Of a stretch of DNA of 45,973 bases, positions 13,189 to 20,937 are shown in pieces. The DNA comes from an uncultured Alphaproteobacteria bacterium (lineage in GTDB: Bacteria > Pseudomonadota > Alphaproteobacteria > Caulobacterales > Parvularculaceae), in contig CADEDN010000027.1 of NCBI GenBank assembly GCA_902826095.1, positions 1 to 45,973 on the forward strand, given 5' to 3'. Numbering within the stretch: position 1 is the stretch's first letter; every line of letters starts with the position of its first letter. The translations under genes and the position numbers were made by a program. The notes below the pieces were generated by a model, which did not search any database, was not told where the DNA came from, and worked only from the letters and a program-made list of their open reading frames with translations.

Positions 13189-14337
13189 TCAGCTCGTCGC
13201 GCCGCCGCCGGCGTTCGATTGAATGACGACCTTTTGACCGTCGCGCAGGCGTTCGCCGCCCCGGATCACGACGCGGTCGCCCGCTTTGACTTCGCCAATG
13301 ATTTCGATGAGGTCGCCGTCGGCCGCGCCGAGTTCGACGTCGACTTGCTTGGCGACATCGTCCGCGCCGACGACGAAGAGGCTGACGCGATCGGCCCGCA
13401 AGATGATCGCGTCGCGATGCGCGGCGACAACTTTTTTCGGCGCGCTGCGCGGCAGGCTGACCTGAACGGCGGAGCCGATATGCCAGTCCGTCTCCGGCAG
13501 AATGAGTCGCAATTCCAATGTGCGGCTGACCGTATCGCCGACAGGAACGACCGCGCGCACTTTTGCGCTGATCGTTTCGACGCCATTTGAAATCCTGACA
13601 TTGTCGCCGGCGTGCACCGCCGCAAGAAGCGTGTCCGTCGCTTGCGCGGTCACTTCAAGCTCATCGATATTGACGAGACGCGCAATCGGCGCGCCCGGAT
13701 TGGCGAACTCGCCGACTTCAATCTCCCGCGCGGCGATGCGGCCGTTGAACGGCGCCTTGACCTCGGTTCTTTCAAGCGCCGTTTCAGCGCGGCGCAGCGC
13801 GACGCGCGCGCGTTCGAGGTTTTGCTGGGATTCATCGCGATCGGCGCGCATCTGATCGACCGCCGCCTCGGATTCGCCGCCATCTTCGCCGAGCCCCTCA
13901 TGACGGCCGACCAGCCGGGCGAGATACCCGGCCCTCGAGGACAGGCGCTTGATGTCCGTGCGCGCTTCGTCTCGCTGCTGGCTGGCGTCCGCCGGATCGA
14001 TCCGGGCGATGATTTCGCCGGCCTTCACTTCGGATCCGATTTCGGCGACCCAGAGCACCTGGCCTGGCGTCGCCGCGGCGATAAGGCTGTCATTGACGCT
14101 GACGACCGATCCTGGCGCATCCGCATGCGGCGCAAGGCTTGTCGCGACCGCTTCCGCGACGCGGACATTCGCCGGCGGCGGCGCGGGCGGGCCGGCCTCC
14201 GCCGAAGCCTTCGCCTTGTCATTGAACGCGCCGGCGAAATAGGCGCCGGAGCCTGCAAGCGCGACGAGCGCAACAGCGCCGGCGAGGAGCGGGCCCGGTC
14301 GTCGGAGATTCAGTTTGGGCATGGCGTTCATCCTCAT
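13189..14337 (-). CDS. RND efflux periplasmic adaptor (membrane fusion protein)
   Basis: A protein of 377-382 residues of the AcrA/HlyD family that links the inner-membrane pump to an outer-membrane channel. An N-terminal membrane anchor (about 12-33) is followed by a lipoyl/barrel-sandwich half (VLWVAEIGSEVKAGEIIARID), a helical hairpin (about 120-180), the second lipoyl half (VKAPFNGRIAAREIEVGEF) and beta-barrel domains. It is the second gene after the RND pump: its first ATG overlaps the pump stop by four bases. The in-frame ATG at 14322 has a better ribosome-binding site (GAGGA, eight bases) and may be the true start. Confidence 0.9.
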   Translation of the reverse strand: MRMNAMPKLNLRRPGPLLAGAVALVALAGSGAYFAGAFNDKAKASAEAGPPAPPPANVRVAEAVATSLAPHADAPGSVVSVNDSLIAAATPGQVLWVAEIGSEVKAGEIIARIDPADASQQRDEARTDIKRLSSRAGYLARLVGRHEGLGEDGGESEAAVDQMRADRDESQQNLERARVALRRAETALERTEVKAPFNGRIAAREIEVGEFANPGAPIARLVNIDELEVTAQATDTLLAAVHAGDNVRISNGVETISAKVRAVVPVGDTVSRTLELRLILPETDWHIGSAVQVSLPRSAPKKVVAAHRDAIILRADRVSLFVVGADDVAKQVDVELGAADGDLIEIIGEVKAGDRVVIRGGERLRDGQKVVIQSNAGGGATS

Positions 14338-17300
14338 TCGGCCGGCTGAAGGATCAAGTCGCGGCTCCGCGCGGCGGACTTTGCGGAGCCGAGCTGCAAC
14401 ATGGCCGGCATCAGGACCAGCGTGAAAATGGTCGACACCGCAATCCCGCCGAAAATGACGGTTGCCAAGCCGCGATAAATTTGCGCGCCTTCCCCCGGCG
14501 CGACGATCAGCGGCAGCATGCCCATCAAGGTCGTCGCGGTCGTTGCGAAAATCGGCCGGGTCCTGAGGCGCAACGCTTCGCGCACGGATTCCGCGCGCGA
14601 CTTGCCTTCCGCTTCCGATTGCCGCGTCTGTTCGACAAGAAGGATCGCGTTGTTGACGACGATGCCGAGCAGAATAATGAATCCAATCATTCCGAGCAGG
14701 TCGAGCGGCGTCGGATTGACGAGGTTGAGGATTCGGATCGCGATGACGCCGCCGACGGCCGCCATCGGCAGCGCGACGATGACGATTGCGGCGTCGCGCA
14801 GCGATTTGAAAAGCGCCGCCATGATCAGGAAAAGGATTGCGACAGCGAGCAGGAAATTGCCGCCGAGATTGCTGATGGCGCGGTTCAGGCTGTCCGCCTC
14901 GCCGGCATAGGCGAGCGACGATCCTTCTGGCAGCGCCGCATATATGTCCTTCTCCGCGCTTTCCTTGAGTTTGGCGATGACGTCGCCAAGCGCCATTCCT
15001 TCCGGCGGGTTGACGCCGAGCGAAATCGTGCGACGCCCGTCATAGCGGATGATTTGTTGCGGCCCGACGGTTCGCTCAAATCTCGCGAGTTCTCCGAGCG
15101 GGACGATTGAACCGTTCGGCGTCGCCATCGGCGCCGTCGCCAGATATTCAGGCTCGCCCCATTCATTCGCCTCAAGGATGATGTCGACGCGCGAATCTTC
15201 ATGGAAGAATTCGCCGAGCCACAGACCGTCGCCGAGCGCGCGCACGGCGCTCGCGACGCTGTCGCGCGTCATGCCGACCTCGGCGATGCGGCGGTCATTC
15301 GGAATCAGCGTGATTTCAGGATTGACGATCTGCGGATCAGGATTGGGCCACACCGACGCGCCGGGGAGGGCGGCGTTGATGATGTCGATCGCCGCCGGTG
15401 TCGCATCGAGGAGCGCGTTATAATCGGCGGACTGGAGGTCGACCCGGATGCCGCCGCCGCCGCCGAAATCGCCGAAGAGTTCGCCCTGTTGCGCGAAAAC
15501 TCGCGTGTCGGGAAATCCCGCAAGGATCTCCTCATTGACGATCTTTTCGAGCTCGCCCATTTTCGACTGGATTTTAGGGCGGACGCCGATATTGCCGCCC
15601 CATTCGCCGGAATAGAGATAATAGTTGAGCAGCGCCGGCTCTTGCTCGCCCTTCATGTACGGGTCGAGTCGTTTCACGACGACCTCGGCGAATTCCTTGC
15701 GGATCATGTCGGCGCTCGCTCCCGACGGGAAGGATATGAAGCCGTCAATCGCCGCGCGTTTGACCGGCGGCAGGTAATTCAGGGAAGGGAAAAGCATGAC
15801 CGCTAGGGCGACCGGAGCAACGGTCAATCCGGCGATCCAGGCGATGCGCCGCTTCGGCGTCCGCGTCAGGCCCATGACGATGTCCGGAAGCTGTTCGAAG
15901 AATGACGGCTTCGTCGCCGCCAATCTCGGCTGCTCCTTTTTCTTCATGAACAACGCCGCGCCAAGCGGCAGAACCGTCGCCGCCACGACGAGACTAAAAC
16001 AGACCGCGGCGGCGATCGTCAGCGCCAGATCGGCGAAAAGCTGGCCTTCGACGTCTTCAAAAAACATGATCGGAATGAACACGGCGACGGTCGTCACCGT
16101 CGACGCGAAAAGCGCGCCGAACACCTGCTTGACCGCCAGATAGGCGGCCTCCTTCGGCTCGCGCCCTTCGTCGCGCATTCGGACGAAATTCTCAAGAACG
16201 ACAATCGCCGCGTCGAGCACCATGCCGGTCGCGAACGCAAGGCCCGCAAGCGAAATCACATTGATCGAGCGGCCTGTCATGTTGAGAAAGACGATGGTCG
16301 CGACAAGGCAGATCGGGATCGCTGAAGCGATGAGCAGGGTCGCGACCGTGCGCCGCAGGAACGCCCACAAGATGCCTGTCGCGAGCAGGACGCCGAGCAG
16401 CAAGTTCCCCGTCAGCATCGACAAGGCGTTCTTGATGAAGAGCGACGGATCGAAGCTCTTGTGGATGGCGTAGCCCATCTCCGCGAGCTGGCCTTCGTTC
16501 AGCTCATCGATCTTGTCCGTAATGGCGTCGATCGCCGCGAGCGTGTTCGCGCCAGGCTCGCGCATGACGCGCATGCCGATCGCCGGATTGCCGTTTTGAT
16601 AGACGACGCCGCCGCGGCGATCATTGGCGACTTCGACTTTGGCGACGTCATTCAGCCGAATCGGCGAGCCGTTGCGCCAGGCGAGGATCGTGTCGCCGAG
16701 CTGTTCGGCGGTATAGCGGCCTTCAAAGCGCATCGTGTAATTGCGCCGGCCGACTTCAACCGATCCGCCGGTGACGTCCGTCGACCGGTTCACGGTTTGC
16801 GCGACCTGATCGATGGTCACGCCGAGCTGCGACAGTCGGAACGGGTCGAATGAAATCCGGATGATTTCCTCGCCGTCATCCGAATTGACATCGACGCCCG
16901 CGACGCCGTCGATCGCTTCGAGTTCGGGCGCCACGCGCGTCTGCGCGAACTCCGTCATCTTGCCGGACGCATTGTCATGTCCCGGGAGGCGCTGCATGAA
17001 AAGGAATATCAGCGTGTCGCCGGCCGAGCCGCCGCCGAAATCGCCGATCGAGGGCCGGTCCGCCTCGGCCGGCAGACCGCGCACGCGTTGCAGTCGGCTC
17101 GTGACTTCGGTCAGAATCTTGTCCATGTCGGTCCCGAGCGCGAATTCAAGACGCACGAAACCGCCGCCGGAATTCGAGAAGGACTGCATGGTTTTAAGGC
17201 CCGGTATCCCGCGCAATTCGCGTTCGATGGGCTCGATGATTTCGCTTTCGACCTCGCGCGGGCTGGCGGCGCGCCAACCGGTCCAGATGCCGAGTTCCGG

Positions 17301-17426
17301 CCGTTCGATGTTGGGAAGAAGCTGGATCGGCAAGCGCGTGATCGAGACGACGCCGAGCAGCGCGATCAGCGCCAGGACGACGCCGACGGCTGCGGGATTT
17401 TTCAAACAGAGCTTGGTCAGACCCAT
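14334..17426 (-). CDS. RND efflux pump permease (AcrB/HAE-like)
   Basis: A 1030-residue proton-driven pump with the full RND layout: twelve membrane helices and two large periplasmic loops (about 35-330 and 560-860). The fourth-helix motif reads GMVLDAAIVVLEN, keeping the first aspartate of the classical DD pair but with Ala in place of the second; this is a common variant outside the Mex/Acr branch. The tenth/eleventh-helix stretch GIVVNNAILLVEQ is intact. It is the first gene of a two-gene minus-strand operon with the adaptor. No outer-membrane factor (TolC) gene or regulator is adjacent, so it probably uses a shared channel. The substrate is unknown. Confidence 0.92.
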   Translation of the reverse strand: MGLTKLCLKNPAAVGVVLALIALLGVVSITRLPIQLLPNIERPELGIWTGWRAASPREVESEIIEPIERELRGIPGLKTMQSFSNSGGGFVRLEFALGTDMDKILTEVTSRLQRVRGLPAEADRPSIGDFGGGSAGDTLIFLFMQRLPGHDNASGKMTEFAQTRVAPELEAIDGVAGVDVNSDDGEEIIRISFDPFRLSQLGVTIDQVAQTVNRSTDVTGGSVEVGRRNYTMRFEGRYTAEQLGDTILAWRNGSPIRLNDVAKVEVANDRRGGVVYQNGNPAIGMRVMREPGANTLAAIDAITDKIDELNEGQLAEMGYAIHKSFDPSLFIKNALSMLTGNLLLGVLLATGILWAFLRRTVATLLIASAIPICLVATIVFLNMTGRSINVISLAGLAFATGMVLDAAIVVLENFVRMRDEGREPKEAAYLAVKQVFGALFASTVTTVAVFIPIMFFEDVEGQLFADLALTIAAAVCFSLVVAATVLPLGAALFMKKKEQPRLAATKPSFFEQLPDIVMGLTRTPKRRIAWIAGLTVAPVALAVMLFPSLNYLPPVKRAAIDGFISFPSGASADMIRKEFAEVVVKRLDPYMKGEQEPALLNYYLYSGEWGGNIGVRPKIQSKMGELEKIVNEEILAGFPDTRVFAQQGELFGDFGGGGGIRVDLQSADYNALLDATPAAIDIINAALPGASVWPNPDPQIVNPEITLIPNDRRIAEVGMTRDSVASAVRALGDGLWLGEFFHEDSRVDIILEANEWGEPEYLATAPMATPNGSIVPLGELARFERTVGPQQIIRYDGRRTISLGVNPPEGMALGDVIAKLKESAEKDIYAALPEGSSLAYAGEADSLNRAISNLGGNFLLAVAILFLIMAALFKSLRDAAIVIVALPMAAVGGVIAIRILNLVNPTPLDLLGMIGFIILLGIVVNNAILLVEQTRQSEAEGKSRAESVREALRLRTRPIFATTATTLMGMLPLIVAPGEGAQIYRGLATVIFGGIAVSTIFTLVLMPAMLQLGSAKSAARSRDLILQPAE

Positions 17427-17504
17427 GCGCGGCTCCGCGGAAATGACGTGAGCGACAAATGTCGCAACGTCGCATAAACTCCCGGAAAACCCTTAATAAC
17501 AAGA

Positions 17505-17533
17505 GGCCGTCGGTCGTCTTTCGACCAACGGCC
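17505..17533 (-). terminator. Hairpin after the M56/M23 gene
   Basis: GGCCGTCGGTCG and CGACCAACGGCC (11 of 12 pairs) enclose a TCTTT loop. On the minus strand the stem is followed by CTCTTGTTATT, a weak T-rich tail. It lies about 40 bases past the stop of the M56/M23 gene and upstream of the pump gene, so it would separate the two transcripts. Confidence 0.55.
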
Positions 17534-17573
17534 CGATGAAAGCGACGAAGTGAGAACCGCGTCGACGATCCGC

Positions 17574-19997
17574 TCAGCGCTGGTGGTCCTGCTGCGACAG
17601 TTTCTCTTCGAGTTCCGCAATCTCGCGTTCGATGTGTGATTGCTGCGCTTCGAGATTTCTCCGGGCGCCATCAATCGCGCGTTTGTGATGATCGGCGTCG
17701 CGCCGCAGCTGGCGTCGCGCTTCTTCAATCGATCGCCGAGCCTGTTCAATATCCTTGTTCGCCATTTCCTGTTCGTCGAGTTCGGCTTCCGCCTCGTCGA
17801 GATCGGCGAGCGCGTCGGCGACGCTGTCTTCAACGTCCTCGTCGATGTCCCCTTGCGCGTCGATGACAGCTTCCAGTTCGGCTTCAAGCGCCTCGCGCCG
17901 TTCAATGATCAATTCGTTGCGCGCTTGCGCGTCCTCCTCGCCGTTCCAGGCGAACGCATAGGCGCCCGACTCATCAGCGATACGCATCGCGTCGCGGCGG
18001 GCGCGCTCCGCTTCTCGGCGCCATTCAGTTTCGGCGCGGCGCGATTCCCGCAGCGCGCGATCGCGCTCGCGTTTCATGTCCGCGAGCGCCTGGCGAAGTT
18101 CGGCGCGCTTCTCCGTAGTCATCGGCTCGTCGCTCGTGAAGCGGTAGACCTTGTCGCCGGTGCGAAGCGTCAGATCATAAACCGCGCCGTTTTCGCCATC
18201 GATCGCGCCAAGGAGGCGGTCCTCGATGTCGTCCGCCATCAGGTCGGCGGCGGCCGACCCGTCGGCGAAGGCGAATTCTGTCGGCTCCGTGAAGTGAAAC
18301 GCGCCTTCAGCGAAGATCGGCGCGCGTGCGGTCACGACCGGATTGATGATCTTGAAATCAGGAAATCCCGTCGGCGAAGGCGCCATTCTGAACGAAAATC
18401 CTCTGATGTGCGCCGGCGCAGCGGCGGGCGCTGGATCGGCCGCCGGCATCGGCGTCGGCGCGTCAACCGGCATTGGCGCTTCGGCGGGTGTCGGCGCCGC
18501 CTCCGGCGTTTCGACAGGTTCGGCGACTTCCGCCTCGATGACCGCGACGGGATCGACCGCTTCGCCGCTCTTCAGCGTCTCAAAATGCAGATGCGGGCCG
18601 GTCACTTTGCCGGTGGCGCCGACGGTTGCAATCACATCGCCGGTCCTGATGCGATCGCCCTTTTTCACACGGTAGGAATCAAGATGCGTATATCGGGTCA
18701 CAAGACCGCGGCCGTGATCGATGATGACGACTTTGCCGGACGCCGGCGACTCATCAAAATGATCGGTCGCTTCGACGACAATGCCGTCGCCGGGAGCGAA
18801 GACTTTCGCTCCCTTCGGCGCTTTGATGTCGAGGCCGCGATGCGCGAGGCCTTCCTCGCCATTGTCGGCCGGCCGTCTTTCGCCAAATCCCTGCGTGATG
18901 TCGCCGATGAGCGGCATGCTCGCCAGGGCGCGACGGCGCTCCTTGGCGCTTTCCGGGTCGACGGCGAGCGCGGCCTGGCCGACAGCGACGAGCGCGATCG
19001 TTGACGCCGCCGCCGACAGCATCAGCCTGGTCGCGAGCGGCGTTCTTTGTTGCGTTTCAGGCGCAAGGATCGAGTTCAGGCGACGCCGACGGCCGTGGCG
19101 GTCGGCCGGCGTGAAGGACGGCGCGAGCGCCGGCTGCGCGTTCAGCTTTGACGCGGCGAATTTCAATCCCTCGACAAAACATGCGGCGTAGCGGCGACGG
19201 TCGACCCCGCGCGCCAGGACGAGGGCGTCGGCGCTTTCCTCCGCTGCAAGTTCGGCGTGGGCTGCGATGCGGCCGACGATTGGGTTGAACCAGAAAATGA
19301 CGCGCGCAAGCTGCGTCGCTGTGAACAGTCGGGTGTCGCCGCGGCGGACATGCGCCAGCTCATGAGCGCACATCAAAACCAGATCGTCCGCGGAAACGCG
19401 CGCTTCGATGCCGTCGGGAACAAGGATTGTCTGCTTCATCACGCCGAAAATGCAGACGCTCGACACATGACGCGAGCGCCTGATCACCGGGCGCGTGACG
19501 CGAAGCAGTTCGGCCCATTCGTCAATTCGCGCCAGAAGGCGCGCGTCGTCGATGCGCTCGGCGCGCCAGATCGCATAATAAAGACCGAGATTGCGCGCGG
19601 CCCAGAGGAAGAGAGTGAGTATGACGCCATAGACATAGATGATCGCGGCTGCGCCGACGACCTGGTCGAAATCCACCGGCTGAAGCGCCGGGACGGGCTC
19701 AGCGCTTCCCAGGTCCAATTCGGCGGTCATGTAGGGCGCGGCGATCGTGTCGACGATGATTGGCTGATCCGCCTTGCGCAGCGAAACGCCGAACGCTGCG
19801 AGCGTCGGCGCCGCAAGCGAGGGAAGCACGGCGAAAAGCAGCGCCGCCGTCCACAGCCGTTCGGCGGATGACATCGCGCCCGACCGTTCGAGCCCTCGCG
19901 CGCCGAGAAACAGCGCGCCGGCCCAGATGACGGACGCGCCAAGACAGATCAGCAGCGCTTCAGCCTGATATTCGGAAAATGCGATGAGGCCGCTCAT
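17574..19997 (-). CDS. BlaR1-like M56 metallopeptidase fused to an M23 murein endopeptidase
   Basis: An 807-residue membrane protein. Residues 1-345 form the M56 unit: membrane helices near 12-33, 48-70 and 113-140, then the zinc site HELAH at 212-216 and EESAD at 253-257, and a further helix near 325-345. Residues about 360-485 are a LytM/M23 domain with zinc ligands H386 and D390 (HRGLD) and H471, and catalytic H438 and H469 (GPHLH), so it should cut murein peptides in the periplasm. A Pro/Ala linker (490-525) leads to a 280-residue charged, coiled-coil-rich tail. The stop of the BlaI-type repressor gene overlaps the start by four bases. In BlaR1/MecR1 systems the M56 domain cleaves or triggers removal of the repressor; that role is inferred here. 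No penicillin-binding sensor domain is visible. Confidence 0.9.
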   Translation of the reverse strand: MSGLIAFSEYQAEALLICLGASVIWAGALFLGARGLERSGAMSSAERLWTAALLFAVLPSLAAPTLAAFGVSLRKADQPIIVDTIAAPYMTAELDLGSAEPVPALQPVDFDQVVGAAAIIYVYGVILTLFLWAARNLGLYYAIWRAERIDDARLLARIDEWAELLRVTRPVIRRSRHVSSVCIFGVMKQTILVPDGIEARVSADDLVLMCAHELAHVRRGDTRLFTATQLARVIFWFNPIVGRIAAHAELAAEESADALVLARGVDRRRYAACFVEGLKFAASKLNAQPALAPSFTPADRHGRRRRLNSILAPETQQRTPLATRLMLSAAASTIALVAVGQAALAVDPESAKERRRALASMPLIGDITQGFGERRPADNGEEGLAHRGLDIKAPKGAKVFAPGDGIVVEATDHFDESPASGKVVIIDHGRGLVTRYTHLDSYRVKKGDRIRTGDVIATVGATGKVTGPHLHFETLKSGEAVDPVAVIEAEVAEPVETPEAAPTPAEAPMPVDAPTPMPAADPAPAAAPAHIRGFSFRMAPSPTGFPDFKIINPVVTARAPIFAEGAFHFTEPTEFAFADGSAAADLMADDIEDRLLGAIDGENGAVYDLTLRTGDKVYRFTSDEPMTTEKRAELRQALADMKRERDRALRESRRAETEWRREAERARRDAMRIADESGAYAFAWNGEEDAQARNELIIERREALEAELEAVIDAQGDIDEDVEDSVADALADLDEAEAELDEQEMANKDIEQARRSIEEARRQLRRDADHHKRAIDGARRNLEAQQSHIEREIAELEEKLSQQDHQR

Positions 19998-20377
19998 TTT
20001 CGATCCTCCGCGCGCAGGATTTTCTCAAGCTCGCCGATTTCCTCTTCGGTGAGGAGTTTTGAATCCGCGAACATGACCGCCGAAGGGGCGGCGTCGAGTT
20101 CAAGAACGCGGTCGGAAAAGTCGCGGATCATGCGCGAGAGCAGGGCGACTTTGCCGATCGCCGCGGCGTAGACATTGACCCCGTCCGCGCTCTTCTTCCG
20201 CAAAAGCCCCTTTTCACACATCCGTTCGATGACGGTGCGCATGGTCGAATAGGACCAATCGAATTCCGGCGCGACTTCGTCGGTAATTTCCCGCGCTGTC
20301 AGCGATTTTTTTCGCCAAAGGAGCTTCAGGACGGCGAGTTCGGGCTTGGTCGGCTGCAGGGTCGGATCGATGGCCAT
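19994..20377 (-). CDS. BlaI/MecI/CopY family transcriptional repressor
   Basis: A 127-residue repressor. The N-terminal winged helix (about 8-75) contains ELAVLKLLWRKKSLTAREI and the recognition helix around SYSTMRTVIERMCEKGLL; the C-terminal half is the dimerisation region where M56 proteases cut in relatives. It is the first gene of a two-gene operon with the M56/M23 protein. A 33-base palindrome sits 29 bases upstream of its start and is the likely operator for self-repression. No beta-lactamase gene is adjacent. Confidence 0.93.
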   Translation of the reverse strand: MAIDPTLQPTKPELAVLKLLWRKKSLTAREITDEVAPEFDWSYSTMRTVIERMCEKGLLRKKSADGVNVYAAAIGKVALLSRMIRDFSDRVLELDAAPSAVMFADSKLLTEEEIGELEKILRAEDRK

Positions 20378-20405
20378 CGGACGGTCCTTCGGTTTTCGGT
20401 CGGCA

Positions 20406-20438
20406 GCGACAAGTGTAGCAGCATGTTACAGTTGTCGC
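20406..20438. promoter_or_regulatory. Candidate BlaI-type operator
   Basis: Arms GCGACAAGTGTAGCA (20406-20420) and TGTTACAGTTGTCGC (20424-20438) are inverted repeats matching at 13 of 15 positions around GCA. The inner TGTA...TACA boxes are the bases recognised by BlaI/MecI/CopY repressors. It is placed just upstream of the repressor start. Confidence 0.75.
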
Positions 20439-20607
20439 AAGCGCCGCGGCGGCGGCGCGCATTCCCGGCCGAGCGCGCAGATTTTCAAGAGATTTTTCGA
20501 CAAAAGGAGCGCGCTTGGCGGCGGGACGCCGGCGGCCGGCATCATTAACCCGTTCTTCAGGTCGCGGTCGCAATGTGTCCCTTTGGGCGGCTAAGCGCGA
20601 GAAAGCC

Positions 20608-20937
20608 ATGGGCAGCCAGAACAAACCAAGCCTTACCGACATCGACGATCGGGCCGAGCCGGATTCTGTCGACCTCCTCAATATAGATGAGCGGCGGGCT
20701 TCGGTGCGCCGCCCGACTTTCAAGGCGGCGGAGATCATTGCGAGCGACGGGAAGACCTATCGTTGCGTCGTCCGCAACATCAGCGAGAGCGGCTGCCTGA
20801 TGAAGCTCGACAACGCCGATCTGCTGCCGGACCTCATCGACATCAGGATCGACCTCGACAAGCCGGCGCGCACGGCTGAGATCGTCTGGCGCAGCGCCAC
20901 GCTCGCCGGCGCGATGTTCGTTCGAAAGCCGTCTTGA
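20608..20937 (+). CDS. PilZ domain protein
   Basis: A 109-residue protein with a single PilZ domain, a cyclic-di-GMP receptor. Both binding motifs are present: RRASVRR (about residues 28-34, fitting RxxxR) and NISESGC (about 57-63, fitting D/NxSxxG). A short acidic, disordered N-terminus precedes the domain. ATG at 20608 is preferred over upstream starts because similarity begins only after it. It stands alone; nothing adjacent tells which process it controls (motility, polysaccharide and cell cycle are the usual ones). Confidence 0.88.
   Translation: MGSQNKPSLTDIDDRAEPDSVDLLNIDERRASVRRPTFKAAEIIASDGKTYRCVVRNISESGCLMKLDNADLLPDLIDIRIDLDKPARTAEIVWRSATLAGAMFVRKPS

Follow-up and report, generated by a model that had tools for sequence, protein, structure and literature searches.

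The window analysed here comprises positions 1–45,973 (45,973 nucleotides) of contig CADEDN010000027.1 from an uncultured Parvularculaceae bacterium (Alphaproteobacteria; assembly GCA_902826095.1), whose genome spans 3.8 Mb in 58 contigs. It contains, on the minus strand, a blaI-type repressor gene (19994–20377, 127 residues; Pfam Penicillinase_R, 1.2e-22) that overlaps by four bases with the gene of an 807-residue receptor/protease (17574–19997), in which an M56 membrane protease is joined to an M23 domain and a helical tail. The order continues with a resistance-nodulation-division (RND) efflux permease (14334–17426, 1030 residues; ACR_tran, 1.1e-186) and an RND periplasmic adaptor (13189–14337, 382 residues; TIGR01730 RND_mfp, 179.8 bits against a cut-off of 94.9), both also on the minus strand. 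Between the receptor gene and the pump lies a terminator-like hairpin of 13 pairs (17504–17534, minus strand), the longest stem of its class here; the class as such is not enriched, with five sites in 17300–20700 against 4.4 expected from shuffles, the other stems having 5–6 pairs. The receptor is the only M56 match of the genome above the Pfam cut-off, and the sole other match, below it, is HtpX-like by eye. The initial annotation had the repressor and receptor genes, their order and their overlap right, in agreement with the coordinates and Pfam domains, and its outer limit, 20438, is exactly the outermost base of the distal blaI operator described below.

The repressor matches Penicillinase_R over residues 10–122 with 80.8 bits (curated cut-off 22.6), and its residues 7–122 align to the MecI and BlaI structures. 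Residue F103 corresponds to Phe102 of MecI/BlaI, described as the P1′ residue at the established cut (PMC9834060), and this P1′ Phe is kept in 39 of 39 BlaI rows. The first 345 residues of the receptor (18963–19997, minus strand) consist of four membrane helices and the M56 protease, predicted to be cytoplasmic, with a Pfam match to Peptidase_M56 over residues 47–276 (2.2e-24). When a 12-row profile of the M56 part was compared with the PDB, only two BlaR1 chain sequences matched at E ≤ 0.001. Staphylococcus aureus BlaR1 was matched at 1e-19 with this profile and at 1.7e-14 with a 17-row profile, and Foldseek matched the membrane part to BlaR1 as well; the NCBIfam model blaR1_generic scored 60.1 bits, under its cut-off of 400. 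The BlaR1 residues H201/E202/H205, Glu242, Asp246 and Tyr261 align with H212/E213/H216, E253, D257 and Y270, and in the 17-row alignment the scissile Ser283-Phe284 and Arg294 correspond to S294-F295 of the autocleavage loop and to R306. The Phe and Arg equivalents of this loop are invariant in 17/17 rows, and the roles of most of the aligned residues in BlaR1, including Ser283-Phe284 and Arg294, are described in PMC9834060.

Hydrophobic stretches at residues 10–36, 45–74, 108–143 and 319–348 agree with helices 9–39, 42–68, 110–144 and 321–345 of the AlphaFold2 model. The loop ahead of the last helix is basic (five K/R against one D/E in residues 301–322), which fits an inside location. Because of this basic loop and the N-out/C-out layout of BlaR1, the M23 domain is predicted to face the periplasm rather than the cytoplasm. 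The receptor thus carries the zinc site, the predicted N-out/C-out layout, the autocleavage-loop Ser-Phe and the Arg294 equivalent of BlaR1/MecR1 receptors. No penicillin-binding (class D-like) sensor was found, in line with the initial annotation: Pfam listed no penicillin-binding or transpeptidase family in the whole receptor, and residues 490–807, searched separately, matched no Pfam family.

Residues 358–488 (18534–18926, minus strand) form the M23/LytM domain, with a Pfam match to Peptidase_M23 over residues 386–483 (3.5e-31) and Foldseek matches to ShyA, EnvC, DipM and LytM. It has the fold of these proteins and, here, a full active site, already recognized in the initial annotation, with an HxxxD motif (H386, D390), the second His (H438) and an HxH motif (H469, H471); unlike them, it is joined to an M56 receptor as its outer domain. 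The remainder of the protein (residues 489–807; 17577–18533, minus strand) had been described as a 280-residue coiled-coil tail. The structure model shows instead a low-confidence linker of about 95 residues (488–583; by eye, rich in Pro and Ala), a small helix/hairpin element (582–621) and about 180 residues of long, charged helix (628–742 and 747–806). The model is of moderate quality (mean predicted local distance difference test score, pLDDT, 72; predicted template modelling score 0.46), with pLDDT values of about 90 for most of the M56 part, about 70–90 for the M23 domain and below 50 for the linker.

A candidate BlaI operator, a dyad of the GCGACA-NN-TGTCGC type, was derived from the blaI upstream regions of relatives. 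In the window, the distal site GCGACAACTGTAAC (20425–20438, minus strand) occupies positions −61 to −48 relative to the blaI ATG and overlaps a −35-like TTGCGA, and the proximal site GCTACACTTGTCGC (20406–20419, minus strand), 19 bases from the distal one, overlaps a −10-like TACACT. The two hexamers, 17 bases apart, were recognized by eye as a −35/−10-like pair; a consensus promoter scan listed no promoter. The conserved dyads stand at the repressor's own promoter, where BlaI would bind. A perfect palindrome, GCGACAAATGTCGC (17452–17465), is located after the 13-pair hairpin, 25 bases before the ATG of the RND permease.

Across 40 loci of the family (678,081 bases), the pattern G[CT][GTA]ACANNTGT[ACT][AG]C was found 57 times, against three matches for the same pattern read backwards, and position was scored in 39 of the loci, where 55 of 56 matches precede blaI or the RND pump. 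In 34/38 loci the blaI gene is preceded by at least one operator (29/29 of those whose receptor has the tail, the long form, and 5/9 of the short forms), a count that is partly built in because the pattern was made from blaI upstream regions; the matches before RND genes and the scarcity of matches elsewhere do not follow from its construction. The spacing of the twin sites is 19 bases in the window and in its three nearest relatives (L033, L034 and L035), and 28 bases in 12 other loci. A strong operator precedes the RND gene in 8 of the 24 loci scanned, including both nearest relatives with an RND gene (L033 and L034), and it is also present in two more congeners (G024 and G039). Outside the family, the same dyad occurs twice before blaI of an Alteromonadaceae locus and before blaI in Duganella (perfect in L127 and L130, near in L129); upstream of the Flammeovirga blaI there was no such palindrome among those listed. 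Because candidate operators stand before both blaI and the pump, the sequences suggest that repressor, receptor and pump form one regulon; the two-gene circuit of the initial annotation, which left out the RND permease and adaptor with their own BlaI-type operator, was drawn too narrowly. The pump and the operators are the best evidence on the output of the circuit.

The nearest named relatives in a scan of genome contigs were Parvularculaceae metagenome-assembled genomes, Marinicaulis, Parvularcula and Amphiplicatus. All 60 family genomes searched gave matches, many through M23 alone, and the 40 loci were chosen from this match list. As expected in the initial annotation, the fusion occurs in relatives; the blaI-receptor pair is conserved in the Parvularculaceae, with blaI before the receptor in 39/40 loci, the remaining one ending at a contig edge. 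The long form is present in 31 of the 40 loci, and an RND gene adjoins the receptor in 25 of these 31; two of the other six (L056 and L069) end at a contig edge. The nine short forms have ORFs (open reading frames) of 453–479 residues, and one of 575, measured from stop to stop. A cultured relative, Amphiplicatus metriothermophilus, has blaI and the receptor, and no RND gene was found next to them. The M56 part of L052 was found by phmmer and missed by tblastn. In two loci (L064:9589–11199 and L065:6320–7969) two M56 genes follow blaI, the first without M23 and the second with it, and in L059 (6097–8477) the M56 and M23 parts occupy two overlapping ORFs, in a broken or mis-assembled copy.

Beyond the family, M56 and M23 in one ORF beside blaI recur in an Alteromonadaceae strain, three Duganella, one Telluria and Flammeovirga, and also in f3 and f161, two further families of the order. 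A search of 289 genomes of the class, in which at most five candidates were scored per genome so that absence elsewhere is not proven, gave, among the matches listed, a full M56+M23 protein only in one genome of the same order (G242) besides the window's own. Among 13 further loci of the order and family (L278–L290), both domains lie in one ORF in seven, and a blaI-like ORF is present in all 13, weakly in two. None of the 3720 matching plasmid records covers 80% of the query; among the matches listed, only the M23 end was matched. In two order relatives (L278 and L279), blaI is accompanied by an M56 protein that contains a proline-rich stretch; the L278 protein has a weak TonB_C match at its end (23.0 against a cut-off of 24.6). 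The outer portion of M56 receptors appears modular. In three Oxalobacteraceae loci, from two Duganella and one Telluria (L127, L128 and L130), an ORF for a TonB-dependent receptor follows the receptor gene after 4, 689 and 3 bases, respectively.

Conservation differs between the two catalytic sites of the receptor. The M56 residues H212, E213, H216 and E253 are kept in 42/42 rows, while the M23 site is intact in 25/38, carries Gln in place of His438 in 9/38 and is lost in 4/38, a count that leaves out four rows (two second M56 proteins without M23, one contig end and one split ORF). We take H438, from work on LytM, to be the catalytic rather than a metal-binding His. The site was lost through an in-frame gap in L035 and by decay in L052, L070 and L072; the forms of L035 and L052 rest on one assembly each, with the ORF open in each case. 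Mapped onto a quick tree of the M56 part, the losses require three changes, all forced by well-supported branches, and the Gln state requires three, of which at least two are forced; the tree has long branches among distant and short-form rows, which makes one loss and part of the Gln changes less sure. Because the M23 site is altered or lost in 13/38, whereas every row retains the M56 zinc residues, M23 catalysis seems dispensable for signalling. At the same time, the M23 domain is evidently under constraint between clades, since in four of five comparisons its conservation exceeds that of M56 (57 v 43, 55 v 40, 54 v 38 and 55 v 45%; both 46% in L057). A domain with a binding job and optional hydrolysis, that is, a sensor that binds through its groove, appears to fit this pattern better than an obligate hydrolase.

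These observations point to a BlaI-BlaR1-type switch over the receptor and the RND pump, in which the M23 groove serves as a binding sensor for peptidoglycan, and we regard this reading as probable. It is carried by the domain architecture, the BlaR1 hallmarks, the operator-like sites, the gene order and the pattern of M23 loss, all read from sequence; from these we infer binding of BlaI to the operator-like sites, its cleavage, the signal and induction of the pump. Sitting on the operators at the blaI promoter and upstream of the RND pump, a BlaI dimer would keep both off. The receptor would span the inner membrane with both ends outside, the M56 part directed to the cytoplasm and the M23 domain and long helix to the periplasm. 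A periplasmic event that alters the engagement of M23 or of the tail would free the M56 cleft from the autocleavage loop; BlaI would then be cut before Phe103, and receptor and RND pump would be made. The M23 groove, which in several lineages has an altered active site or none, would most likely sense stem peptides or cross-links of peptidoglycan. The interpretation of the initial annotation is partly supported: its BlaR1-type circuit, in which an M23 domain predicted to face outward takes the position of the beta-lactam sensor, is upheld, with the pump and operators it overlooked, and wall damage or wall fragments are a candidate signal. Of its murein-cutting or murein-binding domain, the cutting half has the intact site in 25/38, the window's protein included, in its favour, and the four losses and nine Gln forms against it.

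An M23 domain that acts as a membrane-anchored endopeptidase, made on demand for wall remodelling or repair while sensing proceeds via the membrane part or the long helix, would account for the five intact residues here and in 25/38, for the higher conservation of M23 than of M56 between clades and for the operators before the receptor's own operon. Given the altered or lost site in 13/38 homologues that keep the M56 zinc residues, we consider this unlikely. Much the same improbability attaches to a signal consisting of the pump substrate itself, an antimicrobial or envelope toxicant sensed via the membrane or tail, with M23 as a mere wall anchor. The RND gene that adjoins most long-form receptors, in some loci with its own operator, and the retention of the tail in L035, which has no M23, would agree with it, but L035 has no pump next door, and short forms without tail and neighbouring pump keep M23 or a decayed form of it. 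More doubtful still is a docking role like that of EnvC or NlpD, in which M23 would bind an amidase or division protein whose release signals division or envelope stress. EnvC and DipM LytM domains are among the best Foldseek matches, and degenerate M23 folds act in protein contacts according to PMC9662197; against this, 25/38 homologues keep the full site, unlike EnvC and NlpD as described in that review, and no amidase was noticed beside the receptor, in a survey that included no search aimed at amidases.

Several points also weigh against a switch with a peptidoglycan-binding M23 sensor. The signal and DNA binding by BlaI are inferred, and the operator counts before blaI are in part a product of the pattern's source. 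A strong operator of its own precedes the RND gene in just the 8/24 loci mentioned, joint transcription being assumed elsewhere, and no RND gene was found in the fetched stretches near the short-form systems (0/9). Compared with its two closest intact relatives, the window's protein shows lower conservation in M23 than in M56 (69 v 75% in L033 and 63 v 69% in L034), and with the site fully intact in 25/38, including the window's protein, catalysis may matter here. L035 has neither M23 nor a pump next door, and L052 combines a decayed M23 with the lack of an operator before its pump; the M23 losses may therefore mark altered systems.

Compared with the S. aureus BlaI-BlaR1 and MecI-MecR1 systems, the locus has the same repressor gene adjoining an M56 receptor, the predicted membrane layout, the zinc site, the Ser-Phe of the autocleavage loop, the P1′ Phe of the repressor and operator-like dyads over its own promoter. 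It differs from them in that M23, linker and helix replace the penicillin-binding sensor, in the candidate output, an RND pump rather than beta-lactamase or PBP2a, and in the operator half-site, GCGACA/GCTACA here as opposed to the staphylococcal TACA...TGTA. A precedent for a BlaI-type circuit that reads a wall fragment is found in Bacillus licheniformis, where a peptidoglycan dipeptide is a coactivator that acts on BlaI in the cytoplasm; unlike the system of the window, the mechanism as described there involves no M23 part (PMC3305447). In a 2022 review of M23 proteins, those with any other catalytic domain make up less than 1% of matches, and M56 is named among the rare added domains, its role in peptidoglycan cleavage not having been shown; the domain pair is the same as here, and the portion of the review available gives no repressor, operator, pump, topology or function for it (PMC9662197). 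Beyond this note on architecture, as far as that text goes, we found no report of an M56+M23+BlaI circuit, of its operators or of a BlaI-controlled RND pump in literature consisting mostly of non-subscription papers. Within the literature searched, the parts and the M56+M23 architecture are thus known; what is new is the circuit, with its operators and output, and the way in which M23 decay is distributed.

The locus bears on the question of what is detected by M56 receptors that lack a penicillin sensor, a group to which the authors of the BlaR1 structure assign a Mycobacterium tuberculosis homologue (PMC9834060). What the switch senses may be the condition of the wall and not penicillin; if so, a wall-reading receptor would control efflux in Gram-negative bacteria. 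The locus supplies a putative sensor, the exact positions of three candidate operators and a pump as the likely output, so that signal, cleavage and output could be tested with a reporter. More tentatively, with somewhat less than even confidence, such receptors could form a class that arose by converting a LytM-type wall hydrolase into the sensor of a BlaR1-type protease. The groove would read cross-links or stem peptides, with catalytic activity retained, reduced (His to Gln) or absent depending on lineage, and the receptors would drive an envelope regulon: the RND pump here and perhaps, in Duganella, the TonB-dependent receptor and, in a Marinicaulis-type subclade, an M16 peptidase.

Other copies of the operator were found outside these loci. 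In the window's own genome, the pattern GCKACANNTGTMGC occurs four times, against three for the backward control. A perfect palindrome lies 180–167 bases before a degP gene of this genome (G000:C4:34086–34099, equal to L201:8087–8100), which is followed by response-regulator-like and kinase-like genes, as judged by eye. A degP envelope-stress regulon was rejected as a conserved target, as no operator precedes degP in 6/6 genus relatives with a usable upstream region (the start was extrapolated in four of the six, whose alignments begin at residue 24–37; a truncated row and a second copy were set aside). In relatives, most of the further copies (20 stretches) stand before no target common to several genomes, the M16 peptidase being the main exception. 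Thirty M16 peptidase loci were compared, 12 of which had no usable upstream region; the operator score exceeded 20 in five of the other 18 and was about 14 in two more, and weak or no sites were found in the remaining 11. In L291–L295, of the Marinicaulis-type subclade, a BlaI-type operator lies 139–156 bases before the M16 peptidase gene. Operator copies also stand before a TonB-dependent receptor-like gene in L246 and L240 (Pfam-tested in L246 only) and before the gene of a TonB_C protein in L250. On the other side of blaI in the window, and divergent from it, lies a small PilZ-domain gene (20515–20937, plus strand), with a tblastn match in three of the 40 loci (L033–L035).

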